Assembly (NCBI RefSeq): GCF_006965445.1
Contig: NZ_CP041356.1
Span: forward strand, 1,612,001 to 1,676,000
Source: Lactococcus protaetiae
GTDB taxonomy: Bacteria > Bacillota > Bacilli > Lactobacillales > Streptococcaceae
Length of the DNA stretch: 64,000 nt
Reading direction: 5' to 3'
Made by a program: the position numbers and the translations under genes. A model generated the notes under the pieces. The model saw nothing but the letters and a program-made list of their open reading frames with translations. It searched no databases and was not told the DNA's origin. Within the stretch, counting starts at the first letter, position 1, and every line of letters starts with the position of its first letter. Positions 3,775 through 61,155 of this stretch are shown here, piece by piece.

Positions 3775-4205
3775 TTTAACCAAGCAAGTGCGTGCTATCT
3801 TCGCCCTTTGGGCTACGCTGTCCATCCTCGCTACGGTGCTATGTGCTTCGCACGCCGTTCTGCGAACGGTCTCCGCAACTTCGTTGCTACGCTGTCCATT
3901 CGCTCTATCTCCATTTCACTGCGCTGTCGATTCTCGCTACGGCACGAACGTGCCTAGTCAAAGTCGCAACTCGCTAAAGCGATAAGGCGAAATGGCAAGC
4001 TTTGTTTTCGTTCTACTGCCCTAGGGTCTTAGCGCTTTAGCGCTTAGACTTCAGGGACAAGACCACTTCGTCTTGCGACTTTAGTCGCTTAGAGCGAATG
4101 GATAACGAAGCAAAGCGGAGGTGTGACCACATATCTTTGATGTGAGGTTGTGCCCTAACGTGAGTGGGAGAGAAAGAATCTCCCACTGATGAGGTAATCA
4201 CTTCA
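3775..4205 (-). repeat. Modular palindromic element, complete copy (reverse orientation)
   Basis: A member of the repeat family that fills most gaps here. Reading on the minus strand it begins with TGAAGTGATTACCTCA (4205-4190), goes through a hairpin of CCCAC/GTGGG type, and ends with AGCACGCACTTGCT plus GGTTAAA (3797-3775). The interior is a string of short perfect palindromes, such as GTGCTTCGCAC, CCGTTCTGCGAACGG, GCAACTTCGTTGC and GCACGAACGTGC, joined by the spacer CGCTGTCCAT. Length is 431 bp. TATACTAGTT directly before the right end (3761-3770) recurs near other copies. Confidence 0.85.
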
Positions 4206-4560
4206 ATTTTACGCAGTAAAATTATTAGATGACTACGCTGTCCATTGGCTGTATCTCCGCTTTGCTCTGCTTCCGATTTCACTAAGCCACTAGGTGAAAC
4301 AACCAGCATATCCGTAAGCGCCGATGAATATTTGTTCTATCTCTAGGTCACTAAAGTGACAAGAATAGAGGCAACACCAAATGGCGATTAAACGAACAGC
4401 AGAGCAACGAAGTTGCATAGAACGTTCGCAGAACGGTATGCGAAGCATGTAGCACCGTAGCGAACCATTTCGCCTTGCTGCTTTAGCAGCTTAGAGCGAA
4501 TGGATACCCGTGGTGCATTGACAACGTAGCGCAGCGAAGTAACTTTTAAACAGTATTAGA
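4206..4560. repeat. Interior modules of the palindromic repeat without clear ends
   Basis: The tract continues from the complete copy with the same module vocabulary: GTTGCATAGAACGTTCGCAG (inverse of the three-palindrome string), GCTGCTTTAGCAGC, and blocks such as AGCGAATGGA. No left or right terminus is recognisable, so this is a decayed or internally expanded portion. No coding sense; the open frames across it are only by-products of repeats lacking stops. Confidence 0.7.
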
Positions 4561-4630
4561 AATTCCGCATTACATTATAATTATTCTGTCAGAATGAATA
4601 TTTACTGACAGAGTTTTTGTCAGTAAATAC

Positions 4631-4659
4631 TTGAAATCTAAAAGAAATTTTGCTAAACT
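4631..4659 (+). promoter_or_regulatory. carB promoter
   Basis: TTGAAA and TAAACT with a 17-bp spacer and a TGC extension just before the -10. Transcription would begin near 4666, about 20 nt before the PyrR binding loop, which is the expected geometry for an attenuator leader. Confidence 0.75.
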
Positions 4660-4674
4660 ATTAAACAATAAAAC

Positions 4675-4811
4675 TTTTAATCTAGTCCAGAGAGGCTAGC
4701 AAGGTTGTGAACGAGAAAAATATCATTCTGTAAGCTACTGACAGCCTTCTGTCAGTAAATTATTGAAGCATTTTGGTACACATCTGCTAGATTTCTGGCA
4801 GATGTTTTTTT
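4675..4811 (+). promoter_or_regulatory. PyrR-dependent attenuator of carB
   Basis: The loop sequence AGTCCAGAGAGGCT at 4684-4697, closed by CTAG/CTAG, matches the PyrR RNA-binding consensus. Downstream, ACATCTGC (4780-4787) pairs with GCAGATGT (4798-4805) and runs into seven Ts: an intrinsic terminator. Between them lie TGTCAG/CTGACAG arms (about 4735-4760) that can form part of the antiterminator. Known mechanism: with high UMP/UTP, PyrR binds the loop, the antiterminator is lost and carB transcription stops; when pyrimidines are low, RNA polymerase reads through. The promoter, loop and terminator are all visible. The antiterminator pairing is inferred. Confidence 0.9.
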
Positions 4812-4940
4812 ATAAAAATGCGCTGTTCAGCACATATCTCATGCTATCTTCTTTAAGGTGGATTTTATACCTTACGTAGATGCAAAATAACAGAGTTACA
4901 ATTCATCTTATTTAGAGCTGAATAATTATAAGGAGAACAA

Positions 4941-7900
4941 ATGCCAAAACGTACTGATATTAAGAAAATTATGATTATAGGCTCTGGACCAATTATTATT
5001 GGACAGGCTGCTGAATTTGATTATGCTGGAACTCAAGCTTGTCTTGCTTTAAAAGAGGAGGGCTATAAAGTCGTTCTTGTCAATTCAAATCCAGCAACGA
5101 TTATGACAGACCGTGAAATTGCAGATACAGTGTATATTGAGCCGATTACCGTTGAGTTTGTTAGCAAAATTCTTCGCAAAGAACGTCCAGATGCTCTGTT
5201 GCCAACACTTGGTGGACAAACGGGATTGAATATGGCGATGGAACTAGCAAATACAGGGATTTTGGAAGAGCTAAATATTGAGCTTTTAGGAACAAAACTC
5301 AGTGCGATTGACCAAGCAGAAGACCGAGAACTTTTCAAAAAACTCATGGAAGAATTAAACGAACCTATTCCAGAATCAGAAATTGTGCACACTGTTGAGG
5401 AAGCAGTGACTTTTGCCGATACAATCGGGTATCCAGTTATTGTACGACCGGCTTTCACAATGGGTGGAACAGGTGGCGGAATCTGTGCCAACGAAGAAGA
5501 ACTTCGCGAAATTTCCGCAAATGGATTGAAACTTAGCCCAGTGACGCAATGTCTGATTGAACGCTCTATTGCAGGCTTCAAGGAAATTGAGTATGAAGTA
5601 ATGCGTGACTCAAGAGATAACGCCATTGTGGTTTGTAATATGGAAAACTTTGACCCAGTAGGTGTTCACACAGGAGATTCTATTGTATTTGCACCTAGTC
5701 AAACACTTTCTGATAACGAATACCAAATGTTGCGTGATGCCAGCCTAAAAATTATTCGTGCGCTTAAAATCGAAGGTGGCTGTAACGTCCAACTTGCACT
5801 TGACTCCGAAAGTTATAAATATTATGTGATTGAAGTCAATCCGCGGGTCAGTCGTAGTTCAGCGCTCGCTTCAAAAGCAACAGGATATCCTATTGCGAAG
5901 ATGTCAGCAAAAATCGCTGTTGGTATGACACTTGATGAAATTATCAATCCAGTAACTAATAAAACTTATGCCATGTTTGAGCCAGCACTTGACTATGTTG
6001 TCGCCAAAATTGCGCGTTTTCCTTTTGATAAATTTGAAAATGGAGACCGACATTTAGGAACTCAAATGAAGGCAACAGGCGAAGTGATGGCGATTGGACG
6101 CAATATTGAAGAGTCACTTCTCAAAGCTGTCAGGTCATTAGAAATTGGCGTGTTTCACAATGACCTTGCAGAAGCACGAGAGGCGACAGATGAAATCCTC
6201 TATGAAAAAATGGTTCGTGTCCAAGATGACAGGCTCTTCTATGTAGCAGAAGCCATTCGCCGTGGAATTCCAATAGAAGAAATCGCTGAATTAACAAAAA
6301 TCGACCTCTTTTTCCTTGATAAATTGCTTCACATTGTTGAAATTGAACAAGCGCTCAAAGTTAATGTTTTCGACCCAGAACTTTTAAAAACAGCTAAAAG
6401 AAATGGATTTTCAGACCAAGAAATCGCTAAACTTTGGAATGTAAATGCTGCCGAAATTCGCCGTAGAAGACAAGATAATCAGATCATTCCTGTCTATAAG
6501 ATGGTTGATACCTGTGCTGCCGAATTTGAAAGTTCAACACCATACTTTTATTCAACATACGAGTGGGAGAACGAATCTGTAAAATCTAATAAAGAAAAAA
6601 TTATTGTTTTAGGTTCAGGGCCGATTCGGATTGGGCAAGGGGTTGAGTTTGACTATGCAACAGTTCACTGTGTCAAAGCGATTCAAGCAGAAGGGCGTGA
6701 AGCCATTGTTATCAACTCTAATCCTGAAACAGTATCAACAGATTTCTCAATTTCAGACAAACTTTACTTTGAACCCTTGACTTTTGAAGATGTCATGAAT
6801 GTCATTGACCTTGAGCAACCGCTTGGCGTTATTGTGCAGTTTGGAGGACAGACGGCGATTAATCTGGCAGAACCTTTATCAAAATCGGGTGTAAAAATCT
6901 TAGGAACACAAGTTGAAGATTTGGATAGGGCAGAAGACCGCGATCTTTTTGAAAAAGCACTTCAAGCATTATCTATCCCACAGCCGCCAGGAAGCACAGC
7001 AACAAACGAAGAAGAAGCGGTTATTGCCGCGGGTAAGATTGGATATCCTGTCCTTATTCGTCCATCTTTCGTACTTGGTGGACGTGCTATGGAGATTATT
7101 AATAACGAGAAAGACCTGCGAGATTATATGAATCGTGCAGTAAAAGCGAGTCCTGAACATCCCGTTTTAGTTGATAGCTATTTGCAAGGGCGCGAATGTG
7201 AAGTGGATGCGATTTGCGATGGAAAAGAGGTATTGTTACCAGGTATTATGGAGCATATCGAACGTGCGGGAGTCCATTCGGGAGACTCGATGGCAGTTTA
7301 TCCTCCTCAAACCTTCTCACAAGAAATCATTGATACCATTGTTGACTATACAAAACGCCTTGCACTTGGTCTAAATTGTATTGGTATGATGAATATTCAA
7401 TTTGTCATTCATAATCATCAAGTTTACGTGATTGAAGTCAATCCACGGGCTTCACGTACAGTTCCGTTTTTATCAAAGGTTACCAATATTCCAATGGCAC
7501 AGTTGGCAACAAAGATGATTTTAGGTAAAACTTTGAGTGAATTAGGCTATAAAGAAGGTTTAGCAGCGACTCCTGATATGGTACACGTCAAAGCACCAGT
7601 ATTTAGCTTTACAAAATTAGCAAAAGTGGATAGCTTGCTTGGTCCTGAGATGAAATCAACAGGTGAGGCGATGGGATCTGATACAACACTCGAAAAAGCG
7701 TTGTATAAATCTTTTGAAGCTGCAAAACTTCATATGGCAGACCATGGGTCAGTCTTGTTTACCGTTGCAGATGAGGATAAAGAAGAAACCTTGGAGCTTG
7801 CAAAAGCTTTCGCAGAAATCGGATATTCCCTTGTAGCAACAACAGGTACAGCACAATTCTTCAAGAACCATGGACTTTATGTTCGAGAAGTTGAGAAATT

Positions 7901-8132
7901 GTCTGGCGATGAAGAAGATGGAACCTTGATTGAAGAAATCAGACGTGGACGCGTGCAAGCTGTCGTTAATACAATGGGAAATAACCGTGCATCATTGCAA
8001 ACGGAAACAGATGGCTTCAGGATTCGTCAAGAAGCCATAAGTCGTGGAATTCCACTGTTTACCGCACTTGATACGGTTGCGGCTATTCTTAAAGTAATGG
8101 AAAGTCGTAGTTTTTCAACACGCATGATTTGA
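4941..8132 (+). CDS. carB: Carbamoyl-phosphate synthase, large subunit
   Basis: A 1063-residue ATP-dependent enzyme making carbamoyl phosphate from bicarbonate, glutamine-derived ammonia (delivered by CarA, not in this window) and two ATP, for pyrimidine and arginine synthesis. The duplicated synthetase halves are evident: each opens with a similar glycine-rich segment ([20 protein letters not shown] at residue about 10 and [20 protein letters not shown] at about 552) and has an ATP-grasp domain with EVNPR ([26 protein letters not shown]). The C-terminal MGS-like allosteric domain starts near residue 930. Length is normal. The ribosome site AAGGAG is at 4931-4936. It stands alone behind its own PyrR attenuator, as in Lactococcus lactis. 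Confidence 0.98.
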
Positions 8133-8225
8133 GTGTTCATGATTTGCTTTTTATACTAGTTTATCCTTAGCTATGGAGCATATAAGCTGGTGTTCGTAAG
8201 TTTTATAGAAAATTTTAGCTAACAT

Positions 8226-8297
8226 TGAAGTGATTACTTCATTGGTGGGGACCCCCACCGATGTTAGTTGAACGAAAGCAGCACTTGCTAAGTTAAA
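8226..8297 (+). repeat. Modular palindromic element, minimal 72-bp copy
   Basis: The shortest complete copy: left end TGAAGTGATTACTTCA, hairpin TTGGTGGGG/CCCCACCGA, a GAACGAAAGC joint, then right end AGCACTTGCT plus AAGTTAAA. It has no interior modules, so it shows what the fixed parts of the family are. TATACTAGTT occurs upstream at 8152-8161. The rest of the 8133-8570 gap holds AT-rich DNA with nothing I can name. Confidence 0.8.
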
Positions 8298-8598
8298 AAC
8301 TTTGGAGTAACTCGTTTACTTTGAAGTTTTTTTATTTATGAATTGTCATGTAAAAAGAGTTGCACAATCTTTTTTGTACTGGAAAAGTTTTTCTCAGAAG
8401 ATAATGTCATATATAAATTATGAGTCTATTTTTGACTAAAAATCTGATGTTAAAGCCTGCCCTGTTTTTTAGAAATTAAATAAAATTGATGTTCAAAATT
8501 TACACTGTGTCGTTAAAGTCAGAATTATTTGTGAACTTTGTGCGATTTGTAACCGAATGTTAACTTTCGCAAAGTCTGAAAAAATCTAAAAATTTTAG

Positions 8599-8630
8599 TA
8601 TAATAAAATCGTTGTAAAAATTCTTTTACA
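8599..8630 (+). promoter_or_regulatory. Upstream hemH promoter -10 with adjacent 18-bp operator-like dyad
   Basis: TATAAT at 8599-8604, with no good -35 (a weak match near 8576-8581). Nine bases further on is the perfect inverted repeat TGTAAAAATTCTTTTACA (8613-8630), placed across the probable transcript start. This position suits a repressor site. I cannot assign the regulator; heme- or metal-responsive control is only an inference from the gene it precedes. Confidence 0.5.
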
Positions 8631-8653
8631 TTCTTTAGAGAAAGAAGGACTGT

Positions 8654-8676
8654 AAAACCGTGCTATAATCGGTTTT
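8654..8676 (+). promoter_or_regulatory. Second hemH promoter: extended -10 inside an inverted repeat
   Basis: TGCTATAAT (8661-8669) is an extended -10. It is bracketed by AAAACCG (8654-8660) and CGGTTTT (8670-8676), a 7-bp inverted repeat followed by one more T. From this promoter the mRNA would have only about 14 nt before the hemH ATG and no Shine-Dalgarno sequence. Transcribed from the upstream promoter, the same repeat would form a hairpin with a short T-run, i.e. a possible attenuator. Confidence 0.45.
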
Positions 8677-8689
8677 TCATACGTTAAAC

Positions 8690-9619
8690 ATGACTAAAAA
8701 AGTAGGATTATTAGTGATGGCTTTTGGAACGCCATCAAGTTATGAGGGCATTGAGGATTATTATACTCGAATCCGTCACGGACACAAACCATCGACTGAA
8801 CAGCTTCAAGAATTAACTAATCGTTTTAAAATGATTGGTTTGTCACCGTTGATAGAATTGACGATTGCTCAGGCAGATGAACTTTACAAGCAAGTCAATG
8901 AAGTTCAGTCTGAAGTAGAATTTGAACTTTATTTAGGCTTTCAACATGTTGCTCCATTTATTGGTGATAAGGTTCGTGAAATGCATGAAAATGGAATTCA
9001 TGAAGTTGTTGCTGTTGCGATGGCGCCACATTATTCTGCTTTTAGTGTGAAAGGATACCATGATGCAGCTTATGAAGTTGCAAAAGAATATCCTGATATG
9101 CACTTTACTGATATTATGGAATGGTGGAAGGAAGAGAAGTTCTCTGATTTCTGGGCAAATAATATCAAAGAGGAGTTTGCTAAAATTCCTGAGGAAGAGC
9201 ATGATAAAACAGTGGTTATCTTATCAGCGCACTCGCTTCCTGAAAAATTAATGGCGATTGAAGATACTTATCAGCACCAAGTAGCAGATTCTGCCGCTGA
9301 AATTATCAGAAAAGCAAATCTTAAGCATGCGGTACAAGCATGGCAGTCAGAGGGCGCAACGGCGGATACATGGCTTGGGCCTGATGTTCAAGATGTCACA
9401 CGTGATTTGTATCAAGCTCATGGTTACACACATTTTGTCTATTGTCCTTTTGGTTTTGTTACGGAACATTTAGAAGTGTTCTTTGATAATGATTATGAAT
9501 GTAAAATAGTTTGTGATGAATTAGGAGTGAATTACCACCGTCCAGGAATGCCAAACGCAAATCCCACTTTTGTCGGAAGCATTACAGATTTAATCATGAA
9601 AAAATTGGAGTTGAACTAA
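8690..9619 (+). CDS. hemH: Ferrochelatase (coproporphyrin/protoporphyrin)
   Basis: A 309-residue enzyme that inserts Fe2+ into a porphyrin. In Gram-positive bacteria the substrate is usually coproporphyrin III (CpfC type). Signatures are [22 protein letters not shown] at the N-terminus, the His of [11 protein letters not shown] (about residue 110), SAHSLPEK (about 181), and the C-terminal [15 protein letters not shown] with the metal-site Glu. Length is normal for the Firmicutes enzyme. The ATG is fixed by homology, but no ribosome site precedes it, which is unusual in this window. The stop overlaps the hemE start by one base (TAATG), indicating translational coupling. Lactococci that lack heme synthesis also keep a hemH, so this gene alone does not prove a pathway; its neighbours do. 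Confidence 0.95.
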
Positions 9620-10689
9620 TGAGTTTCAATGACAATTTTTTAAAGGCAGCAAGAGGTGAGGCAGTAGACCACGTGCCTGTCTGGTATATGCGACAGGCAG
9701 GGCGCTCACAGCCTGAGTACCGCGAGATTAAAAAGACACATACTTTATTTGAGATTACACATGACCCTGAACTTTGTGCTTATGTGACGAAACTTCCTGT
9801 GGAAAATTATGGCGTTGACGCAGCAGTGTTGTATAAAGATATCATGACACCGATGGGGGCGATTGGTGTAGATGTGGAGATTAAGTCGGGCATTGGTCCT
9901 GTCATTGCAAATCCGATAAGGACATTGTCCGATGTTGAGCGCTTAGGCGAGATTCATCCTGAAGAGGATGTTCCTTATGTGCTTGAGACGATTCGCTTGC
10001 TTTCGGAGGACTTGCTTGAGGTGCCACTGATTGGATTTTCTGGTGCGCCATTCACTTTGGCGAGCTATTTGCTTGAGGGCGGTCCTTCAAAAAATTATCA
10101 GAAGACCAAGGCTTTCATGCATACGAATCCTGTGGCTTGGTTTGCACTTATGGATAAGCTGGGCGATATGGTGATTCGCTATGTTCAAGCACAAATTCGA
10201 GCTGGGGCATCTGCGATTCAGATTTTTGACTCGTGGGTTGGCTGTTTAAATGTGGCAGATTATCGTCGATTTATTAAGCCGATAATGAGGCGGATTTTCT
10301 CAATTTTACGTGAAGAAAAAGTGCCGTTGATTTTGTTTGGGGTGGGGGCGTCACATTTGCTTTTGGAATGGAATGATTTACCCTGTGATGTGATTGGACT
10401 AGATTGGCGCGTGACGATTGCTGAAGCAGAGCGGTTTGGCGTGACGAAAGCGATTCAGGGAAATTTAGATCCTTCGTTACTTTTGGCGCCTTGGGATGTG
10501 CTTGAGCAAGCGACACGGGAAGTTTTAGACATGGGAATGGCTCATCGGGCTGGATTTATTTTTAATTTAGGACATGGGGTTTTTCCAGAGGTTAATCCTG
10601 AGGTTTTGAATCGTTTGACTGCTTTTGTTCATGATTATTCAAGGCAAAAAATTGCTGACAGAAATGCTATCAGTACTGACACTGTTTAA
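9619..10689 (+). CDS. hemE: Uroporphyrinogen III decarboxylase
   Basis: A 356-residue enzyme removing the four acetate carboxyls of uroporphyrinogen III to give coproporphyrinogen III. The hallmark [10 protein letters not shown] near residue 21 and [16 protein letters not shown] (active-site Asp region near residue 75) are intact, as is the C-terminal [10 protein letters not shown]. The last residues (NAISTDTV) are encoded by a copy of the TCAGTACTGACA palindrome, so the C-terminal tail may have been extended by that repeat. It is coupled to hemH by a 1-nt overlap. Downstream, a strong AACTTTCAA/TTGAAAGTT dyad starts a 320-bp repeat tract before the next gene. Confidence 0.96.
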
Positions 10690-11012
10690 CTTTCAAACGT
10701 ACCGCTTGAAAGTTAAAGTTTGCGTTTCACGCAAACCACTTCTTGCGCGTAAAACATTTGTCCATTTGCTTAGCCGCTGAAGTGCCAAGAGCAAAAGGCA
10801 AGCGCAAGGCACGCACTTTGTGCGCCGTTCTGCGAACGGTCTACGTTCGTTTCACTCACTACGCTGTCCGTTTGCTTAGCAAGCAAAGCTTGCAAGAGCA
10901 AAAGGCAGTATATCTGCAGTTGCCACTTGGCATTACTGCTTTAGCAGCTTACAGCCAATGGACAGCGTAGCCATCTAACAATTCTACTGCGTAGAATTGA
11001 AGGTGAACTAGT
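10690..11012. repeat. Palindromic repeat tract inside the hem operon
   Basis: Begins directly after hemE with two strong dyads (AACTTTCAA...TTGAAAGTT and GTTTGCGTTTCACGCAAAC), then the shared interior modules (GTGCGCCGTTCTGCGAACGG, TGCTTTAGCAGC, CGCTGTCC). It closes with GTAGAATTGAAG and AACTAGTAT, the inverse of the TATACTAGTT boundary seen at 3761, 8152 and about 51075. Neither canonical terminus is present. It separates hemE from the PAS gene and may act as an RNA-processing or partial terminator region. Confidence 0.7.
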
Positions 11013-11045
11013 ATGACAAAGATAAAAAATAGAAAAGAGGTCGTT

Positions 11046-11528: not shown

Positions 11529-11539
11529 GAGCTAGGAGT

Positions 11540-11584
11540 CTCTGTCAGTGCTGATATATTTTTCGTCAGTGCTGACAGAGCTTT
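11540..11584 (+). terminator. Hairpin of TGTCAG repeats between PAS gene and hemY
   Basis: CTCTGTCAGTGCTGA (11540-11554) faces TCAGTGCTGACAGAG (11566-11580) with two mismatches, followed by CTTTT. It is either a weak terminator or a processing hairpin lowering read-through into hemY. Confidence 0.45.
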
Positions 11585-11616
11585 TAATGTATTTTATAAA
11601 AAACAAAGAGAAATAA

Positions 11617-13035: not shown

Positions 13036-13038
13036 AAA

Positions 13039-15353: not shown

Positions 15354-15483
15354 TTTATCAAAGCAAGTGCATGCTAATACCCCTACCTCTTTGGGTAGGG
15401 GATAAAGCAGCACTAAGCCTTGAATTTCGTCCGACTAAATTCAGTGGTGAGTCGAAACTCCCACTGAATAAGTCTTGACTTCA
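15354..15483 (-). repeat. Modular palindromic element, 130-bp copy at the hemB 3' end
   Basis: Read on the minus strand: left end TGAAGTCAAGACTT (15483-15470), hairpin ATTCAGTGG/CCACTGAAT with inner GTGAGT/ACTCCC, a second perfect hairpin CCCCTACC/GGGTAGGGG (about 15380-15402), and right end AGCATGCACTTGCT plus TTGATAAA (15376-15354). It starts 3 bp after the hemB stop, so its hairpins probably form the 3' end of the hem transcript together with the terminator that follows. Confidence 0.82.
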
Positions 15484-15489
15484 TTATCT

Positions 15490-17004: not shown

Positions 17005-17034
17005 CAAAAGAGACTACCATGCAGTAAAGTCGAT

Positions 17035-17362
17035 TGAAGTGATTACTTCATTGGTGGGGATTCTTTCTCCCCACCGATGTTAGGGCACAACCTCACATCA
17101 AAGATATGAGGTCACCCTGTCCCTGAAGTCTAAGCGCTATCTCCGTTTCACTGCGCTGTCCACTCTCGCTAAGTGGCTAAAGCCACAAGTCGAGTCGCAA
17201 AGCGCTAAGACCCTAGGCAGTAGAACGAAAGCAGAGCTTGCCATTGCGCCTTATCGCTTTAGCGATTTAGAGCGAATGGACAGCGAAGCGAAGCGGAGAT
17301 AGTGCTGCTTATCCCCCACCTTTAAGAGGTGGGGGGGGTTAGCACGCACTTGCTAAGTTAAA
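17035..17362 (+). repeat. Modular palindromic element, 328-bp copy
   Basis: Left end TGAAGTGATTACTTCA (17035-17050), hairpin GGTGGGGA/TCCCCACC, then the blocks CACAACCTCACATC, CCCTGAAGTCTAAGCGCT and CTAGGCAGTAGAACGAAAGC, and a final perfect CCCCCACCT/AGGTGGGGG stem. It ends in AGCACGCACTTGCT plus AAGTTAAA (to 17362). It fills almost the whole gap between the epimerase-like gene and the permease. Confidence 0.88.
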
Positions 17363-43943: not shown

Positions 43944-44473
43944 TTGTACTTTTTAATAAACCTTATAATGTATTGACAAAATTTACAGATGAGGATGGCC
44001 GTGCTAACCTTTCGGACTATATCAAAATTCCTAATGTTTATGCAGCGGGACGACTGGATAAAGACAGTGAGGGCTTACTTTTACTGACAGATGATGGTAA
44101 ACTTAATCATCAGCTGACAGACCCCAAATCGAAGTCTTATAAGACTTATGTGGTACAGGTTGAGGGAGATTTTTCAGATGAAGCAGCTCGGAAATTGCGT
44201 CTAGGAATTTTGCTCAAAGATGGGAAAACGTTACCTGCAAAGGTTAAAAAAATTGTACCACCTGATTGGATATGGGCGCGAACACCTCCGATACGTGAGA
44301 GAAAAAATATTCCAACGAGTTGGATAGAGATTTCGATTAAGGAGGGGAAAAATCGACAGGTGCGTCGAATGACAGCAGCCGTTGGTTTTCCAACTTTGCG
44401 GTTGATTCGCAGCTCTATTGGTCAGTATGATTTGGGAAGCCTCAAATCTGGTGAGTATAAGATAATAAAATGA
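43940..44473 (+). CDS. RluE/RsuA-family pseudouridine synthase
   Basis: A 177-residue RNA-modifying enzyme. Catalytic Asp in AGRLDKDSEGLLLLTDDG (about residue 35), then KTYVVQVEG and the C-terminal KEGKNRQVRRMTAAVGFPTLRLIR. No N-terminal S4 domain, as in the RluE type that modifies 23S rRNA. Overlaps hemD by 4 nt (ATGA), so it is co-translated with heme genes although its function is unrelated. Its stop codon TGA is at the same time the first three bases of a modular repeat (left end at 44471). Confidence 0.9.
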   Translation: MIVLFNKPYNVLTKFTDEDGRANLSDYIKIPNVYAAGRLDKDSEGLLLLTDDGKLNHQLTDPKSKSYKTYVVQVEGDFSDEAARKLRLGILLKDGKTLPAKVKKIVPPDWIWARTPPIRERKNIPTSWIEISIKEGKNRQVRRMTAAVGFPTLRLIRSSIGQYDLGSLKSGEYKIIK

Positions 44474-44785
44474 AGTCAAGACTTATTTAGTGGGAGTTTC
44501 GTAAAACATTTATCCATTTTCTTCAGTTGCAGAAGTGACTGATAAAAGGACAACTCACTACTGAATTTAAGGTAGAACTTCTAGGTGTAATAACTAAGCA
44601 ACTTGTACGCAGCCAAAGTTGCAACATTCTGCTTAACATCTTTGATATGAGGTCACCTTGTCCCTCTCAGAAGCCTAGGTGTTATCTCCGACCTAGAAGC
44701 TCGGAGTATTACGATTGCAACTGGGTGCGTTAGCATCAACAGCATAGTCCGAAGGTCGGAGATAGCACGCACTTGCCTTGATAAA
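44471..44785 (+). repeat. Modular palindromic element, 315-bp copy starting in a stop codon
   Basis: Left end TGAAGTCAAGACTT (44471-44484), AGTGGGAGTTTCGTAAAACA block, GCAGAAGTGAC module, CTACTGAATTTAAGG, CTTCTAGGTG, ACCTAGAAGCTCGGAG, right end TAGCACGCACTTGC plus CTTGATAAA (to 44785). The left end supplies the stop codon of the pseudouridine synthase. Confidence 0.85.
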
Positions 44786-46751: not shown

Positions 46752-46947
46752 TTTAACCAAGCAAGTGCGTGCTATCTTCGCCCTTTGGCTACGCTGTCCA
46801 TCCTCGCTACGGTGCTAAAGCACCTAGTCGGAGTGGCAACTCCCCCACCTCTTTTAGGTGGAGGGATAGGCAACACTAAGCTTTGTTTTCGTTCTACTAA
46901 CATCAGTAGGAGAGAAAAATTTTCCTACTGATGAAGTAATCACTTCA
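46752..46947 (-). repeat. Modular palindromic element, 196-bp copy starting in a stop codon
   Basis: Reverse orientation. Left end TGAAGTGATTACTTCA (46947-46932), hairpin CAGTAGGA/TCCTACTG, GAACGAAAAC joint, CCACCT/AGGTGG stem, and right end AGCACGCACTTGCT plus TGGTTAAA (to 46752). Its first three bases are the TGA stop of the membrane protein gene, and the right end lies a few bases from the ribosome site of the zinc-ribbon gene. Confidence 0.87.
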
Positions 46948-47319
46948 ATAATCTGCCCAGTCATTGCTAGGGTCGTCATCTTCTAAAACACCAAGAGCTT
47001 GAGAGTGTTCTTGTTCTTTTTTTCCTAAGAAACTGGCGATGAAGAGCAAAAGGGCACCAGGAAAATCAAGTAAAGAAAAAATAGCAACAATTCGCATAAG
47101 GATACGTCCAGTTTTTATTGTTTTTGCGCCTTTTCTTTTCATTAACTCACGAGAAAACCAGCCAAAAACTAGAACAATACTAAACCATAATAAGTAACCA
47201 ATCATATCTGACAGATACTGATGTGCATAAATTTGACTGATAGCACCAATCCAAAGAAAACCAAAAATTACAGAGTTGAAAATATTACCAATCAGGCTCA
47301 AAATTAGAGAGGCTTTCAT
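46945..47319 (-). CDS. Small membrane protein of the ydj-like module
   Basis: A 124-residue protein with about four hydrophobic segments (LILSLIGNIFNSVIFGFLWIG, MIGYLLWFSIVLVFGWF, ILMRIVAIFSLLDF, ALLLFIASFLG) and an acidic tail, LEDDDPSNDWADY. I do not recognise a family. I start it at the ATG at 47319, nine bases after the SPFH gene stop, because the upstream start (47361) would overlap that gene by 34 nt. The stop codon is shared with a repeat element. Confidence 0.65.
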   Translation of the reverse strand: MKASLILSLIGNIFNSVIFGFLWIGAISQIYAHQYLSDMIGYLLWFSIVLVFGWFSRELMKRKGAKTIKTGRILMRIVAIFSLLDFPGALLLFIASFLGKKEQEHSQALGVLEDDDPSNDWADY

Positions 47320-48579: not shown

Positions 48580-48878
48580 TGAAGTGGTCTTGTCCAAGAA
48601 GCCTAGGCGCTATCTCCGCTTCGCTGCGCTATCCACACCACGGGTATCCATGATCGCTACGGTGCTGAAGCGCCGAGTCGCAATGGTTATCGCTAAGTGG
48701 CTACGTGCTTCGCACACCGTTCTGAGAACGGTCTACGCAACTTCGTTGCTCCGCTGTCCGTTTGCTTAGGGCTTAAAGCCCAAGAGCAAAAGGCAAAGCC
48801 ACAAGTCGAAATGCCCTATGGCAGTCGTTTATCCCCTTCTAAGAGATAGGGGGATAAAGTAGCACTTGCTTTGATAAA
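48580..48878 (+). repeat. Modular palindromic element, 299-bp copy with decayed left end
   Basis: Starts with TGAAGTGGTCTTGTCC, so the left-end palindrome is incomplete. The interior has CTTCGCTGCG, the string GTGCTTCGCAC/CCGTTCTGAGAACGG/GCAACTTCGTTGC and a CCCCCTATC-type stem. Right end TAGCACTTGCT plus TTGATAAA (to 48878). Confidence 0.8.
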
Positions 48879-49053: not shown

Positions 49054-49622
49054 TTTAACTTAGCAAGTGCGTGCTATCTCCGCCCTTTGGGCTCCGCTGT
49101 CCATTCGCTCTATCTCCGTTTCACTGCGCTGTCGATTCTCGCTATGGCACGAACGTGCCTAGTCGAAGTCGCAACTCGCTACGTGCTCTGCATACCGTTC
49201 TACGAACGGTCTCCGCAACTTCGTTGCTCCGCTGTCCATTTGATTGCCACTTGGCGTTGGCACTTTAGTCCCTTACAGCCAATGGTCATGCGAAGCTAAC
49301 TGCTAAAGCAGTAAGAGCAAAAGGCAAAACGATAAGGCGAAATGGCAAGCTCTGCTTTCGTTCTACCGTCCTAGAGTCTTAGCGCTTTAGCGATTGAGAT
49401 TTGGCTTGTTGCTTTAGCAACTTAGCGAAATCGACAGCGGAGCAAAGCGGAGATAGAGCGAATGGATAACGAAACTTCGCTACGGTGTGACCTCATACCT
49501 TTGATGTTAAGCAGACTGTTGCAGCTTCAGCTACGTACAGGTCGCTTAGTTGTTACACCTAGAGGTTGTGCCCTAACATTGGTGGGGAGAAAGAATCCCC
49601 CACTAATGAAGTAATCACTTCA
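49054..49622 (-). repeat. Modular palindromic element, longest complete copy (569 bp)
   Basis: Reverse orientation: left end TGAAGTGATTACTTCA (49622-49607), hairpin TAGTGGGG/CCCCACCA, the block GGTTGTG, AACATCAAAGGTATGAGG, at least twelve short palindromic modules (GCACGAACGTGC, CCGTTCTACGAACGG, GCAACTTCGTTGC, CTTTAGCAACTTAG and so on), right end AGCACGCACTTGCT plus AAGTTAAA (to 49054). Between 48879 and 49053 and after 49623 there is AT-rich DNA without recognisable features. Confidence 0.88.
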
Positions 49623-49755
49623 AACATACCGATTGAAAATTTTATGCGAATTATCGCTTGCGCTTGATGCTACTTTTCAAGATTGTGAATGAGAAAAGTA
49701 TCGCCTTTTCCAAGCATCACAAGGCAATATATCTGAATAGTATAAGGAGAAACTT

Positions 49756-50930: not shown

Positions 50931-50942
50931 GATTTAAAACCT

Positions 50943-51072
50943 TTAAATGAGTCCAGAGAGGCTTACAAGGATACAGAAAATAGAATGTGAAGTGCTGACA
51001 ATATTTGATATTATTTTGTCAGTGCTGACAGTTTTTAGTACACTTGTAGTCTGAGCTGCGAGTGTTTTTTGT
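50943..51072 (+). promoter_or_regulatory. PyrR-dependent attenuator of the pyr operon
   Basis: PyrR loop AGTCCAGAGAGGCT at 50950-50963. Terminator ACACTTGTAG (51040-51049) / CTGCGAGTGT (51056-51065), a 10-bp stem with two G-U pairs and six Ts. TGTCAGTGCTGACAG at 51017-51031 and GTGCTGACAA just before it can serve in the alternative fold. Same design as the carB leader. Confidence 0.9.
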
Positions 51073-51410
51073 ATTATACTAGTTTGTCTTCAATTCTACG
51101 TAGTGTGATAGCGCGGAGATAGAATTGTTAGATGAATTTTGGATATTACGTAGATTTTGCGATTCGACTAGCAAGTTTGCTTGCGGAGCGAGAGCCATTT
51201 CGTCTTGGGGCTTTAGCCCGTAGAACGAATGCCTCTATTGTTGTCAGCTCTGCTGACTTACGAATAGAGGACAAATGTTCTATGGACACCTGTGGTATGG
51301 AAAGCGGAGCGGGGAGAACTTCTAAACGGTACGGTTACAGTATTAAGTTCCACCGCTCTGCGAGATTTTGGACGAGCTTTGTGTGACTGACAACTTTTGT
51401 CAGCATACTG
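51073..51410. repeat. Repeat-derived insert between pyr attenuator and pyrK
   Basis: Begins with ATACTAGTTT and GTCTTCAATTCTACGTAG, the inverse of the tract end near the PAS gene (about 10985-11012). It continues with modules such as GCAAGTTTGCTTGC and GGGGCTTTAGCCC. No canonical end. It ends before TGTCAGCATACTGACAG (51399-51415). It lengthens the pyrK leader by about 340 nt. The open frame across it is not a gene. Confidence 0.65.
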
Positions 51411-52216: not shown

Positions 52217-54129
<1,913 letters not shown>

Positions 54130-54143
54130 ATTTGGAGCTACAA

Positions 54144-54794: not shown

Positions 54795-54837
54795 TGTAGA
54801 TTAAGAAAAAAAACAAAACTTGAAAGGAAGAATAAGA

Positions 54838-55419: not shown

Positions 55420-56119
55420 ACCAGTTATTGCCTTAGACTTTCCGGAATTTGTGGATGTAAAAGACTTTTTGGAGCAATTTGACCCTTCAGAAAAACTCTA
55501 TATTAAACTAGGAATGGAGCTGTTTTATACTGCAGGTCCACAAGTTGTCTATTATGTGAAATCACTTGGACATCGTGTGTTTTTAGATTTGAAATTGCAC
55601 GATATTCCAAATACAGTGGAATCCTCAATGCGTGTTCTTGCACGCTTGGGTGTAGATATGGTTAATGTTCATGCAGCTGGCGGTGTTGAAATGATGATTG
55701 CTGCAAGACGTGGTTTAGAGGCAGGTACACCAGCCGGACGACAAAAACCGAAACTTATTGCAGTGACTCAACTGACCTCAACTTCTGAAGAAATCATGCA
55801 TAACGACCAAAAAATCATGACAAGTCTGGAAGAGTCTGTCATCAATTATGCTCAAAAAACAGCAGAAGCAGGACTTGACGGTGTGGTTTGTTCAGCACAC
55901 GAAGTAGAAAAGATAAAAGCAGCAACTCATAAAGATTTTATTTGCCTGACACCCGGTATTCGTCCAGCCGGAACAGCTTCAGGAGACCAAAAACGAGTAA
56001 TGACACCAGCGCAGGCTCATCAGATTGGTGCAGATTATATCGTGGTCGGTCGTCCGATTACCCAAGCGCAAAATCCTATTGAGGCTTACCACAATATTAA
56101 AGCAGAGTGGAATCAATAA
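55403..56119 (+). CDS. pyrF: Orotidine 5'-phosphate decarboxylase
   Basis: A 238-residue TIM-barrel enzyme making UMP, the last step of UMP synthesis. N-terminal VIALDFPEF, catalytic [14 protein letters not shown] (Asp-Lys-x-x-Asp, about residue 60), and phosphate site LTPGIRPAG...[13 protein letters not shown]. Normal length. Last gene of the operon; a repeat element and a strong terminator follow. Confidence 0.97.
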
Positions 56120-56141
56120 GTTAAATTATAAACCAATCCAA

Positions 56142-56389
56142 TGAAGTCAAAACTTGTTCAGTAGGAGTTTCGACTCACCACTGAATTTAAGGTACAACCT
56201 CTAGGTGTAACAACTAAGCGACCTGTACCTGTACGCAGCTAAAGCTACCACAATCTGCTTAACATCTTCGATATGAGGTCACCTTGTCTCAGAAGCTGCG
56301 TGCTAAAGCACTCATGCTCCGACTTTAGTAGCTAAGTAAATGGACAGCGTAGCCCTAAGGGCGGAGATGGACACACTTGCTTTGATAAA
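56142..56389 (+). repeat. Modular palindromic element, 248-bp copy
   Basis: Left end TGAAGTCAAAACTT, hairpin TTCAGTAGGAG/CACCACTGAA, then AACCTCTAGGTGTAACAACT, GCAGCTAAAGCTAC and AACATCTTCGATATGAGG blocks, CCCTAAGGGCGGAG module, right end ACACACTTGCT plus TTGATAAA (to 56389). Lies 22 bp after pyrF. Confidence 0.83.
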
Positions 56390-56393
56390 AGTT

Positions 56394-56428
56394 AAAAAAA
56401 ATGGATAAGTGAACTTATCCATTTTTTT
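56394..56428. terminator. Terminator of the pyr operon
   Basis: ATGGATAAGT/ACTTATCCAT flanked by A7 and T7, 2-nt loop; a near-perfect symmetrical terminator. Confidence 0.88.
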
Positions 56429-56471
56429 ATGGCTAGAAAACGTCATGGATAATAAAATAATCTGAAAATTA

Positions 56472-56480
56472 TGCTACAAT
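56472..56480 (+). promoter_or_regulatory. Probable serC promoter (extended -10)
   Basis: TGCTACAAT, an extended -10 with no clear -35. The leader to serC is about 100 nt and holds GGAC/GTCC-type dyads; no T-box sequence is present. Confidence 0.5.
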
Positions 56481-56589
56481 ATATAAAAATTCTAATTTTC
56501 ATACTGAGGATAGGACTGTCCATCTTATCTAAAACATTGAATTTTTACAGCAACTCAACGAACATTCGTCACAGCTTAAAGGAGAAATA

Positions 56590-57674
56590 ATGATTTATAA
56601 CTTTGCAGCAGGACCAGCAGTGCTCCCCAAGAAGTGCTTAGAAAAGCACAAAAAGAATTTTTAAACTATGCGAACTCGGGAATGAGTGTGATGGAGTTGA
56701 CACATCGGGGTAAATTGTTTGGTGAAATTATTACGCACGCAGAAGAAACTTTGCGTGAGCTGATGAACATTCCTGACCATTACAAAATTTTGTTTTTACA
56801 AGGAGGAGCATCCACACAATTTACAATGGTACCGCTAAATTTGGCACTTGGGAAAAAGGCATATTATACAATATCGGGGCTTTTCGGACAAAAAGCATAC
56901 GAAGAAGCCGTTAAATTATCTAAAACATTGGATTTACAACCAATTATCCTTTCCGAGAGTAAAAGTGACCATTTTACCAAAATCGCACAATTCGATAAAT
57001 GTCAAGTTGACCCGAAGGCTGCGTATGTTCATTTGACGATGAATAATACCATTGAAGGGAGCAGCCTCTATGAACTTCCTGAAACTAATGATGTGCCAAT
57101 TGTTGGAGATATGAGTTCAAATATTCTTGCTGTAAAATATGATATTAACAAATTTGGACTCGTCTATGCTGGAGCTCAAAAAAATATTGGACCAGCAGGA
57201 GTAACCATTGTTATCGTGCGAGAAGACCTCTTATCTCATCAAGAAATGCTGTCTTCAATGCTGGATTATCAGCTTTTAATCAAAAATCATTCGCTTTATA
57301 ATACACCACCAACTTTTGGAATATATATGGCGGGACTTGTCTTTGATTGGGTAAAAGCGCTTGGAGGTGTTGATGAGATGGAGAAGCTAAATCGAGAAAA
57401 AGCAGCGTTACTTTATGATTATCTTGACAGCACTACTTTTTATCAAACGCCCATCCAAAATAAAGCAGAACGTTCAATTTGTAATATCCCTTTTACGACT
57501 TCTGACGCAGCGCTTGACCAGCTTTTTGTCAAACAGGCTGATGAAGCAGGATTAAAGAACCTAAAAGGACACCGTTCGGTAGGTGGGATGAGAGCAAGTA
57601 TATACAATGCTTTTCCGAGAGACGGTGTGGTTGAGTTGGTCAGATTTATGAAAAAATTTGAAAAAGAACATTGA
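56590..57674 (+). pseudogene. serC: Phosphoserine aminotransferase, frame break near start
   Basis: PLP enzyme making phosphoserine from phosphohydroxypyruvate (361 residues when repaired). The N-terminus [13 protein letters not shown], behind AAAGGAG, is in one frame and everything from [13 protein letters not shown] onward in another; one extra C in the C4 run at 56624-56627 joins them. [19 protein letters not shown], the PLP lysine in [16 protein letters not shown] (about residue 193) and [12 protein letters not shown] are intact. The stop codon TGA is the first three bases of a modular repeat. Confidence 0.94.
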
Positions 57675-57804
57675 AGTGATTACTTCATCAGTGGGAGATT
57701 CTTTCTCTCCCACTGATGTTAGTAGAACGAAAGCAAAGCTTAGTGTTGCTAAATCCTCCCACCTAAAAGAGGTGGGGGATTTAGCAGACACTTGCTTGGT
57801 TAAA
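57672..57804 (+). repeat. Modular palindromic element, 133-bp copy starting in the serC stop codon
   Basis: Left end TGAAGTGATTACTTCA (57672-57687), hairpin CAGTGGGAGA/TCTCCCACTG, GAACGAAAGC joint, CCCACCT/AGGTGGG stem, and right end AGCAGACACTTGCT plus TGGTTAAA (to 57804). Compact copy. Supplies the serC stop. Confidence 0.88.
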
Positions 57805-57869
57805 CCTATTACGAAACTCAGCAGTGAGCAGCAATGCCATAACTCAAAGAGCGGAGTAGCAAGGTAAAA

Positions 57870-58267
57870 TGAAGTCAAGACTTATTCAGTGGGAGTTTCG
57901 TAAAACATTTGTCCATTTTCTCTAGTCGCTGAAGCGACTGATAAAAGGGCAACTCCCCGCTGAATTTAGTCGAACAAAATTCAAAGCTTGCTATTCCGAC
58001 TAGGTGCTTCAGCACCGTAGCGAGGATGGACAGCGTAGCAAAGCGAAGATGGTGCTGCCTTATCTCCGACCTAGAAGGTCGGAGTATTGCGATTGCGACT
58101 AGGCGCTTTGCCTTTTGCTCTTACTGCTTTAGCAGTTAAGCAAACGGACAGCGGAGCAACGAAGTTGCGTAGACCGTTCGCAGAACGGCGTGCGAAGCAC
58201 GTAGCGCCTTAGCAAGCATCGACAGCGTAGCCGCAAGGCGGAGATAGCACGCGCTTGCTTTGATAAA
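57870..58267 (+). repeat. Modular palindromic element, 398-bp copy
   Basis: Left end TGAAGTCAAGACTT (57870-57883), AGTGGGAGTTTCGTAAAACA, GTCGCTGAAGCGAC, CCCGCTGAATTTAG, ACCTAGAAGGTCGGAG, then the inverse three-palindrome string (GCAACGAAGTTGC, CCGTTCGCAGAACGG, GTGCGAAGCAC). Right end TAGCACGCGCTTGCT plus TTGATAAA (to 58267), 14 bp before serA. Only 65 bp separate it from the previous copy. Confidence 0.88.
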
Positions 58268-58281
58268 TTGGGAGAAAAGAA

Positions 58282-59475
58282 ATGGTTTATAATATCAAAA
58301 CAATTGGAAATAATATTGATCCTCTAGGTTTACAAGCATTTGGTGAAGGATTTGTCATTGATGCTGTAAAAGAAGATGAAGCAGATGCCTTTGTTTGCCG
58401 TGCTCAGAACTTTCATGATTATCAGTTTGGAAAAAACCTTCTAGCCATTGGTCGTGCAGGAGCAGGTTTCAATAATATTCCAGTTGAGCGATGTGCTAGT
58501 GAAGGAATTGTTGTTTTCAATGCACCTGGCGGAAATGCTAATGCGGTAAAAGAGCAGGTGCTTTGCATGATGATTTTTGGTTCTAGAAATCTCAAACCAG
58601 CAAATAAATGGTTGACGAGCCAAAAAGGAACCGATAGAGAAATTGATTTAGCTGTTGAAAAAGGTAAAAAAGCTTTTGCAGGAAGTGAAATCCGTGGGAA
58701 AACACTAGGTATTATTGGTTTGGGCAATATTGGCTCTCGTGTAGCAAATGATGCGGCGAATCTAGGAATGAGAGTTTTAGGCTACGATCCTTACATTTCT
58801 GTTGAGCGCGCGTGGGATATTTCTCATGATGTAAAAAGGGTAACGAATCTTGATGATATTTTTGAGGAAGCAGACTATATCACGATTCATACGCCTTTGA
58901 CTGAAGAAACAAAAGAAATGTACGGTTATGAGAATTTTTCGAAGATGAAAAAAGGTGTGATTTTGATGAATTTTGCACGAGATGAGATTACTGATAAATC
59001 GGCTGTTCTTGATTATATTGCCAATGGGACGATTCAATTTTTTGCAACGGATTTTGGCTCAGAGCAATTTTATCATCAAGAACACATTTTTGTGAGCCCA
59101 CATTTGGGAGGTTCAACTCAGGAAGCGAGTTTGAATTGCACAAGAATGGCCGCGAGGTCAATTCAGGCTTATCTTCAGACAGGTGAAATCATTAATTCTG
59201 TGAATTTTCCAAATGTACGGCAAGAGCTAAAAGTTCCTTATCGAATTACATTGATTAATAAAAATGTCCCAAATGTAGTGGCGCAAATTTCGGTGGCTGT
59301 TTCGGATAAAAATATTAATATCAGCAATATTATTAATCGTTCAAAAGGTGATTTTGCTTATACTTTGATTGATTTGGATGAACAAAATGAATCTAAAATT
59401 CAAGCTTTAGTTGAGCATTTTGAAAATAGCGAAAATATTGTGAGGGTAAGAGTGATTAAAAAATGGTCGTTGTGA
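58282..59475 (+). CDS. serA: D-3-phosphoglycerate dehydrogenase
   Basis: A 397-residue NAD enzyme oxidising 3-phosphoglycerate, first step of serine synthesis. NAD-binding KTLGIIGLGNIGSRVANDAANLG (about residue 140), substrate-binding LMNFARDEITD with the active-site Arg, catalytic His in VSPHLGGSTQEAS, and a C-terminal ACT domain from about 325 (INKNVPNVVAQISVAVSDKNINISNI) for possible serine control. GGGAG lies 9 bases before the ATG. Overlaps the DUF1015 gene by 13 nt. Confidence 0.96.
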   Translation: MVYNIKTIGNNIDPLGLQAFGEGFVIDAVKEDEADAFVCRAQNFHDYQFGKNLLAIGRAGAGFNNIPVERCASEGIVVFNAPGGNANAVKEQVLCMMIFGSRNLKPANKWLTSQKGTDREIDLAVEKGKKAFAGSEIRGKTLGIIGLGNIGSRVANDAANLGMRVLGYDPYISVERAWDISHDVKRVTNLDDIFEEADYITIHTPLTEETKEMYGYENFSKMKKGVILMNFARDEITDKSAVLDYIANGTIQFFATDFGSEQFYHQEHIFVSPHLGGSTQEASLNCTRMAARSIQAYLQTGEIINSVNFPNVRQELKVPYRITLINKNVPNVVAQISVAVSDKNINISNIINRSKGDFAYTLIDLDEQNESKIQALVEHFENSENIVRVRVIKKWSL

Positions 59476-60686
59476 AGGCTTTTAAAGCGATTAGGCCACG
59501 AGAGGATTTGGTTGAAAAAGTAGCGACTTTGCCTTATGATGTCCTATCTAGCAGTGAAGCGAGGGTGCTTTCGGCTGATAATCCTTACTCCTATTTGCAT
59601 ATTGATAAAGCTGAGGTTGATTTGCCGGTGGATATTGATTCGCACAGTGAAGCGGTTTATCAGCAGGCTGCGACTGCCTTAAAAGATTTTTTAGAGGCAG
59701 GCTGGTTGAAAAAAGAAGATGAAAATAGACTTTATTTGTATGAGTTGACGATGAATGGACGGACTCAAACGGGAATCGTTGGCTGTACTTCAATTTCAGA
59801 TTATGAAAATGGCAAAATTAAACGTCATGAGTTGACTTTACCTGAAAAAGAGCAAGATAGAATTAATCATTTCGAGGCAACAAACTGCAATACTAGTCCT
59901 ATTTTCCTTGCTTACCATGAAAAACACGAAATTCAAGCTTTGGTTTCAGGATGGAAACAGAGTCATGAGCCGATTTATGATTTTACGAGTTTTTATGGTG
60001 TTGCACATCGTGTTTATCTTGTTGATGATAACGATGTTGTGGAGCAGCTTGAGCATTATTTTTCTCAAGTTTCTGCGCTATATATTGCAGACGGCCACCA
60101 TCGGAGTGCGAGTGCATTCAAAGTAGGAGCAAAGCGTAGAGCTGCTGAAAATGATGATGAAAATGCGGAATATAACTACTTTTTATCTGTTATTTTCCCG
60201 GATAATGAATTAAAAATTTTGGATTATAATCGAGTGATTAAAACAGCTCTACCGCAAGATTTCTGGGAGAAGGTTGCTGAAAAATTTGATGTTGAAAAAA
60301 TTGAACCTTCAAGTCCGCAGAAAACACGTGAAATTCATGCATTTTCGAATCATCAATGGTTTAGGTTAACACCTAAAAATGAAATCATTCCAACGGATGA
60401 AGTAGAGGCTTTGGATGTAGCAATTTTACAAAATGAAATCTTGGCACCATTGCTAGAGATAGACAATCCAAAGACAAATCCTAATATTAAATTTGTCGGT
60501 GGTATTCGTGGACTTTCAGCACTTGAAGACGAAGTGAATGCTGGTTACGGAATTGCTTTTGCGCTCTATCCTCCGACAATGGCAGAACTTCTCGCCGTTG
60601 CAGATGCAGGAAAAATTATGCCTCCAAAATCAACATGGTTTGAGCCAAAGCTTTTATCAGGGCTATTTTTGCATGAATTAAGCTGA
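59463..60686 (+). CDS. DUF1015-family protein
   Basis: A 407-residue soluble protein of the DUF1015 family, which is regularly found behind serA/serC in Firmicutes. Conserved segments: KAFKAIRPREDLVEKVATLPYDVLSSSEAR at the start, LYLYELTMNGRTQTGIVGC, ALYIADGHHRSASA (about residue 205, a His-rich candidate active site) and the C-terminal MPPKSTWFEPKLLSGLFLH. The biochemical role is not established; a link to serine metabolism follows from gene neighbourhood. Full length. Confidence 0.92.
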   Translation: MVVVKAFKAIRPREDLVEKVATLPYDVLSSSEARVLSADNPYSYLHIDKAEVDLPVDIDSHSEAVYQQAATALKDFLEAGWLKKEDENRLYLYELTMNGRTQTGIVGCTSISDYENGKIKRHELTLPEKEQDRINHFEATNCNTSPIFLAYHEKHEIQALVSGWKQSHEPIYDFTSFYGVAHRVYLVDDNDVVEQLEHYFSQVSALYIADGHHRSASAFKVGAKRRAAENDDENAEYNYFLSVIFPDNELKILDYNRVIKTALPQDFWEKVAEKFDVEKIEPSSPQKTREIHAFSNHQWFRLTPKNEIIPTDEVEALDVAILQNEILAPLLEIDNPKTNPNIKFVGGIRGLSALEDEVNAGYGIAFALYPPTMAELLAVADAGKIMPPKSTWFEPKLLSGLFLHELS

Positions 60687-60726
60687 TGAATTCTCTGTTA
60701 GTGCTGATGGAAAGCCAAAATTGATT

Positions 60727-61019
60727 TGAAGTGATAACTTCATTTGTAGGGGATTTTCCCCCCTTTACTTATAATGTTAGGGGAGGAACAACTAAGACCT
60801 GTGCGCAGTTAAAGATTGCATCAATGATATGAAATCCGCTTCATTATCCATTCGCTCTATCTCTGCAACTTCGTTGCTCCGCTGTCGATTAAAGCAAAGC
60901 AAGCTCGAAATGAAAGCGTCATCTATCTTGTCCACACTACAGTATCCATGCTCGCTACGGAGTCGTAAAGTGTTAAGAGCCTAGGGCAGTAAAACGAAAG
61001 TAGCACTTGCTAAGTTAAA
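60727..61019 (+). repeat. Modular palindromic element, 293-bp copy
   Basis: Left end TGAAGTGATAACTTCA, degenerate hairpin GTAGGGGA/TCCCCCC, a shortened interior with GCAACTTCGTTGCTCCGCTGTC, and right end TAGCACTTGCT plus AAGTTAAA (to 61019). More diverged than other copies. Confidence 0.8.
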
Positions 61020-61020
61020 G

Positions 61021-61155
61021 TAGTTACTTCATTGGTGGGAGATTCTTTCCCCCACCAATGTTAGGTCACAACCTCTAGGTGTAACAACTAAGCGACCTGT
61101 ACGCAGCTAAAGCTGCAACAGTCTGCTTAACATCAAAGATATGAGGTTACCCTTG
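61021..61155 (+). repeat. Left half of a further repeat copy, fused to the previous one
   Basis: Begins with TAGTTACTTCA, then hairpin TTGGTGGGAGA/CCCCCACCAAT, CACAACCTCTAGGTGTAACA, GCAGCTAAAGCTGC and AACATCAAAGATATGAGG. No right end follows; the terminator comes instead. Shows tandem joining or truncation of copies. Confidence 0.75.

Follow-up and report, generated by a model that had tools for sequence, protein, structure and literature searches.

BOX and similar streptococcal repeats are considered non-autonomous mobile elements in the passages quoted from PMC3049150, where the BOX-type repeats of S. suis are described as two end families, boxA-C and boxE-F, that share boxB. The quoted account of the PATEs of Haloquadratum (PMC3119063) gives them near-terminal palindromes and strain-specific insertions, with no terminal inverted repeats (TIRs), no target duplication and no length that could encode a transposase. 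For IS608, the cut-site logic in the cited part of PMC5934647 is insertion 3′ of a short retained site, a similar cut site at the distal end, and subterminal hairpins. Here we describe short elements with fixed ends and variable hairpin interiors in a 64-kb stretch (the window) of the closed 2.70-Mb chromosome of Lactococcus protaetiae (genome G000). Elements are read on the opposite strand to that used in a preliminary description of the window, the right end of which is our target side. Two types, I and II, are almost certainly mobile elements with the boundaries defined below.

The preliminary description treated the copies as a single family with loose ends; instead, two varieties were found, each with linked ends. 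Both carry TTTA[AT] directly followed by CNNAGCAAGTGC at one side and ACTTCA[AT] at the other. In the commonest letters, type I runs from TTTAA and C(T/C)(T/A)AGCAAGTGCGTGC through a hairpin to GAAGTAATCACTTCAA, and type II from TTTAT and C(A/G)AA(G/A)(C/T)AAGTGCGTGC through a hairpin to AAGTCTTGACTTCAT, the first five bases being host target in both. Type I is inserted 3′ of TTTAA and has the distal end TTCAA, and type II is inserted 3′ of TTTAT and has the distal end TTCAT. The right end given earlier, WNGTTAAA or TTGATAAA, is recurrent, but five of its bases (TTAAA or ATAAA) belong to the target. The TGAAGT-type left end, one element base short as first drawn, has 375 matches in the whole genome and none in the control. 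The patterns of the type I and type II right ends have 377 (control 8) and 293 (control 3) matches genome-wide, the two patterns sharing matches at 2 mismatches; reversed sequence or a reversed pattern served as the control for chance. Length is variable, as first described, but complete copies span 46-49 to 708 bp rather than 72 to 569 bp, too short to encode a transposase.

Matrix searches were made over a 495.7-kb sample of the genome, part of it selected for copies. With the right-end matrix 123 places were found, against 1 in reversed sequence; the left-end matrices, two in number, gave 72 and 60 (0 and 1 in reversed sequence) at threshold 12, and the 123 target-side and 132 distal ends scored gave 113 pairs. 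A target ending in A was paired with a type I distal end 58 times and one ending in T with a type II distal end 51 times, the others being two of TTTAT and two of TTTAG, all with type I. Linkage of target and distal end is thus seen in 109 of 113 pairings, or in 107 of 111 without two pairings of ≤40 nt, one of each type, the removal of which leaves 111 copies; the Fisher test of linkage was made on 58/0/2/51. Flanking bases past the five target positions are not conserved. A full-length partner (80.9 to 99.2% identity) was found for 49 of the 111 copies. Density is roughly 0.12 per kb (38 pairings in ten stretches, 320 kb in all), several of the ten having been chosen because they contained a known match. 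Hairpins lie close to both termini of types I and II, and no TIR is visible by eye in the end sequences.

Occupied and empty sites, a comparison to which the preliminary description had pointed, were aligned against the genome of a sister species (G001), which lacks most of the copies and is ~94% identical to G000 over a syntenic block of 144 kb with 18 complete copies. A G001 match spans the site of 16 of these copies, and 12 sites are clean, showing insertion: the flanks plus a single TTTAA or TTTAT correspond to the G001 sequence, point differences allowed, and a target duplication is unnecessary at all 12. At two clean sites, 1661054 and 1703277, the G001 target is one base different. The match at 1615775 is non-syntenic, and those at 1575191, 1620297 and 1656785 are messy, the last, the sister site of the copy at 44470..44780, also containing ATGAAGT. 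The two sites with no spanning match are 1687680 and 1573596, the latter holding an element in both species. Conversely, 140 kb of G001 contained 5 paired copies, 4 of them where G000 also has element sequence (one a remnant). Interiors at the shared site 555057/1573596 are 397 and 350 nt, and those at 639114/1673019, the window copy 60726..61014, also differ between G000 and G001. The simplest reading is a burst of insertion in the G000 lineage after its split from the sister species.

Among 335 genomes of the family, the left end was matched 375 times in G000, 109 times in G015 and 64 times in G001; 31 others have one match each, counted at 2 mismatches, and 301 have none. G015 is no nearer to G000 than are genomes that do not carry the elements, larger syntenic pieces being 67-76% identical. 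Eight paired copies from G015 are all of type I, with TTTAA in 6 and TTTAG in 2, and are 84-97% identical to G000 copies over 48-129 bases, a figure raised by selection of the G015 stretches by match to window copies. Horizontal spread between G015 and G000 is possible, judging from these sequences. Viral contigs contained no exact match to two patterns, and plasmids and phages no DNA similar to one 596-base query. The 21-kb loci of Streptococcus sp. LYSM12 and S. cuniculi, the nearest named relatives listed for one window protein (63% identity), contained no element end.

On balance, we favour the view that types I and II move with chemistry of the IS200/IS605 type, as non-autonomous PATE-like elements. 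Members of the IS200/IS605 family such as IS608 and ISDra2 have in common with types I and II insertion 3′ of a retained short site, a similar distal cut site and subterminal hairpins. The four features quoted for PATEs, namely no TIR, near-terminal palindromes, no duplication and short length, are also those of types I and II, and insertions vary between genomes in both cases, here as seen against a sister species. Excision and insertion would then be single-stranded and duplicate no target; the element would enter 3′ of five bases that are kept next to it, with TTTAA as target and TTCAA as distal cut site for type I, and TTTAT and TTCAT for type II. Guide-based recognition of both cut sites would be expected to give them the same final base, as is the case. 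An enzyme acting in trans would have amplified the elements in the G000 lineage after the split from the sister species, and would now be absent from the lineage or of an unrecognised kind. A circular intermediate would join ACTTCA[AT] to CNNAGCAAG. The mechanism becomes testable, as boundaries and target sites are exact, the target comes in two natural varieties, each with its matching end, and empty sites of recent insertions are available.

Several results weigh against IS200/IS605-type movement. The Y1 transposase model PF01797 had no match in the three carriers in a search of 18 genus genomes (E<=1), with matches in control genomes, and NF033573 matched 0 of the 3 carriers, of which G015 is a genome only 85% complete. 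The TnpB model PF07282 had no match in G000. In the IS200/IS605 comparison, types I and II therefore differ in having no tnpA in three carriers, no tnpB in G000 and no expected strand bias: 110 of 189 copies (0-1.39 Mb) are opposite to the expected lagging-strand-template orientation (p=0.03), where replication direction was taken from the GC skew of sampled stretches and gene orientation may confound the bias. The bases beside the target differ by type and also within type; sub-lineages change these bases with the target unchanged, and no simple guide emerged of the IS200/IS605 kind, a tetranucleotide 5′ of each hairpin that pairs with the cut site. One end's hairpin is unlike that of the other. 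In type II, the distal arms have an observed pairing of 10.08, hardly above the mean of 9.91 when re-dealt between copies (maximum of 500, 10.03). The test is biased towards the observed value, as arms were selected for their best pairing and only copies with at least 9 of 12 pairs were kept (37 of 49, and 51 of 58 in type I), with 3 and 1 short copies excluded. On the favourable side, the type I distal hairpin has three positions that each hold two compensating pairs in large numbers (GC 30/AT 18, GC 30/AT 21 and TA 30/CG 20, of 58), and its arms gave 10.61 against 9.78 (maximum of 500, 10.02) in the same test. Because the target was included in the end matrix, its conservation in the pairings is partly built in, and the independent evidence is that of the empty sites.

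The absence of Y1 transposases (PF01797, NF033573) from the carriers also bears on the REP-type transposase that the preliminary description had suggested looking for. REP/RAYT systems resemble the elements in being palindromic, intergenic and present in hundreds of copies, but differ in that the carriers lack a Y1-class TnpA and that the GTAG tag, as given in the quoted description, was not seen at the ends by eye. The cut-site layout fits the boundary likeness of PATEs to an IS605-type transposon, yet neither an IS605-type transposase in the carriers nor an IS605-type transposon with type I or II ends was found. Two linked target varieties, modular hairpin interiors and unlike palindromes at the two ends further distinguish the present elements from PATEs. 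The search, in which IS110 and IS607 genes were not included, revealed no transposase that could mobilise the elements. We know of no mobiliser of BOX.

Candidate sources were examined and rejected. The orphan target-side ends at L085 and L007 have no transposase-like open reading frame (ORF) nearby by eye, a family search not having been run, and four copies inspected by eye contain no gene remnant. Elsewhere in the genus, two Y1 matches lie above the cut-off, in G006 (internal stops) and G009 (partial), and five are weaker (L050-L054); a scan of the G006 and G009 loci for element ends gave only fuzzy matches of chance quality. The segment G000:C1:1587513-1598496 is absent from G001, and was discarded as a mobiliser as its ORFs, by eye, resemble those of a degraded prophage.

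We consider it unlikely that the elements are moved as double strands by a site-specific recombinase that uses a two-base core (AA in type I, AT in type II), whether of the IS110 type guided by a bridge RNA or a serine enzyme like that of IS607. In its favour, the empty site holds AA or AT once and an insertion has it at each end; this overlap, linked as it is to type, is explained equally well by a shared core and by matched cut sites, and the lack of a Y1 gene in the carriers removes the main competitor. However, conservation is one-sided, with TTT ahead of the core and nothing clear after it, while recognition by a bridge RNA covers both flanks of the core. A guide RNA would also not fit in the copies of 46-49 nt, though action in trans is possible.

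In a different account, the elements are host-domesticated structural repeats that act as 3′ hairpins in transcript protection or termination and are retained by selection near gene ends, their mobility being incidental. An open frame is interrupted by only 3 of 109 copies, compared with 1330 of 3000 control TTTA[AT] sites (drawn from 4845). On the strand of the preliminary description, insertion at [AT]TAAA leaves [AT]TGAAGT, so that a gene stopping at that TAA now stops, at an unchanged position, with TGA. Upstream frames of 80 codons or more are closed at this codon by 13 of 111 copies (TGA in 12, TAA in 1) against 2 and 2 in the other two frames (p=0.0003 for 13 of 17 where one third is expected). 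Empty counterparts are readable at two stop-supplying sites, 46945 and 57672, and both have TAA; the TGA at 57672-57674 of the copy 57671..57799 is the stop of a 346-aa ORF. On the opposite side, the upstream frame's own TAA is kept at 5 of 52 TTTAA copies (0 and 1 in shifted frames). Three copies folded alone as single strands exceed their shuffles (z -6.5 as DNA and -5.5 as RNA for one, and -6.9 and -3.8 for the others). Placement and folding of this kind are in favour of domestication, but the 12 clean lineage-specific insertions indicate spread and not retention, copies are far rarer in the sister species (64 left-end matches against 375), and selection against broken genes is sufficient to explain the placement, making domestication improbable as the main account. 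The replacement of a TAA by the element's own TGA shows how little it can cost for a repeat of this kind to become established at the end of a gene. IS605 stem-loops linked to the 3′ ends of lipoprotein genes in Borrelia, as reported in the cited part of PMC2775950, are a partial precedent for this placement.

The preliminary description compared the organisation with that of pneumococcal BOX, judging the sequences to be different, and both points were borne out. Ends are fixed, the interior is variable, copies are intergenic and different end pairs surround common modules. The BOXA1R primer sequence, used with up to 3 mismatches, matches 138 of the 335 family genomes (up to 86 times in one of another genus) and has 0 matches in G000, G001, G015 and all 18 genus genomes. 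The S. suis repeats, compared by description alone, likewise have different end pairs around common interior modules in the quoted passages (PMC3049150), while the left end described here is numerous in just 3 of the 335 genomes. Membership in the pneumococcal or S. suis BOX families is thus very unlikely despite the similar layout, given the lack of BOXA1R matches in the carriers, a left-end pattern found at 0 or 1 place per genome in the other 332, and the absence of visible TIRs in types I and II when TIRs are ascribed to BOX in the quoted text (PMC3049150). Titles and starts of abstracts in the open-licence literature gave no description of these elements.

The interiors are composed largely of shared hairpin modules, with 95% of the median copy lying in 11-mers common to at least 3 other copies. 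Slot A, between TATCTCCG and GCTGTC, has 22 fillers across 42 of 111 copies, and slot B, between CTCGCTA and AGTCG, has 22 across 36. Fillers seen at least 3 times are present in both types in 7 of 7 cases for slot A and 3 of 4 for slot B, and homologous 78-bp modules lie at the equivalent junction of types I and II. Interior hairpins are exchanged between copies, including those of the third family described below, and are dispensable for ends and boundaries. Pairs of the same type, at least 88% identical and none over 480 nt, revealed 35 distinct single-indel differences; the same positions recur, some being hairpin loops by eye, and the breakpoints share 0-3 bases, which is little for ordinary slippage. 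Slippage was therefore rejected as the source of module changes, and recombination between copies is possible. Outside complete copies 38 module clusters were found, 7 of them with no end motif within 250 bases by a loose match made without a control, and 5 of these 7 lie at the edge of an examined stretch. As modules are nearly always close to an element end, free-living modules were not accepted.

A further family, type III, has inverted-repeat-like ends and is bounded by TACTAGTTCA... and ...AGTTAAACAGTA with modules of types I and II inside. In a sample of eight pairs selected by hand, a 3-bp repeat flanks 7, reading by eye TTA or its complement in six cases and TGA in the other, and the eighth abuts a type II copy. 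Coverage of the interior by 11-mers of types I and II, in the six that are long enough, is 0.88, 0.83, 0.79, 0.73, 0.40 and 0.25, against 0.02 to 0.40 in flanks overall; the interior at 0.73 holds a nested type I copy, and 0.40 and 0.25 are not above their own flanks. In this small sample, one hairpin repertoire is carried by elements with apparently different insertion chemistries, which separates how ends move from how interiors grow. More speculatively, the modules may be a genetic layer of their own, hitchhiking in mobile elements of unrelated chemistry and entering at recurrent positions by an undescribed process that involves no duplication and at most 3 bp of shared sequence, with the mover of types I and II outside the known IS200 class; we put this forward as a tentative and rather doubtful idea.

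More type III elements were seen at G000:C1:965198-965335, 1678001-1678237 and 2419228-2419604, among others, and further type III ends (TACTAGTT...) at window 51077-51093 and 3763-3779. Type I copies lie within type III ends, the TTTAA of which served as target, at G000:C1:1312585-1312920 and near 2298478.

Element copies of the window are collected in Table 1. Pattern and matrix searches, with ends built from the copies themselves, recovered all eleven two-ended copies of the preliminary description, 10 in the strict pairing and one, 60727-61019, which is abutted by another partial copy, in a looser pairing. For 48580-48878, described as having a decayed left end, only the right-hand end was detected.

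Table 1. Element copies in the window, with positions of the element excluding the host target.
Type	Position	Strand	Target and remarks
I	3780..4206	+	TTTAA 3775-3779; sister-genome match (site 1615775) non-syntenic
I (68 nt)	8225..8292	-	TTTAA 8293-8297, minus strand; absent at sister site, alignment messy (1620297)
III	10680..11013		Inverted-repeat-like ends, TGA both sides, same hairpin modules inside; absent from sister genome
II	15359..15484	+	TTTAT 15354-15358; clean empty site in sister genome
I	17034..17357	-	TTTAA 17358-17362; clean empty site in sister genome
II	44470..44780	-	TTTAT 44781-44785; own TGA 44471-44473 closes upstream ORF
I	46757..46948	+	TTTAA 46752-46756; TGA is the stop of a minus-strand ORF ending 46945; sister has TAA
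II, distal end decayed	48580..48873	-	TTTAT 48874-48878; start from the preliminary description; orphan target-side end
I (565 nt, longest in window)	49059..49623	+	TTTAA 49054-49058; clean empty site; sister target TTCAA
II	56141..56384	-	TTTAT 56385-56389; clean empty site in sister genome
I	57671..57799	-	TTTAA 57800-57804; clean empty site in sister genome
II	57869..58262	-	TTTAT 58263-58267; clean empty site in sister genome
I	60726..61014	-	Target 61015-61019; sister site also holds element sequence, interior different
I, partial second copy	61020..61155	-	Abuts the copy 60726..61014; target-side end not seen; far boundary from the preliminary description

Two PyrR binding sites (Rfam RF00515) score above the gathering score at window 4670-4813 and 50936-51074. 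Hairpins of the form CTGTCAGC..GCTGACAG, as at window 61160-61195 and near 639140 in G001, stand at several gene ends in both species, sometimes beside elements, and are probably terminators.

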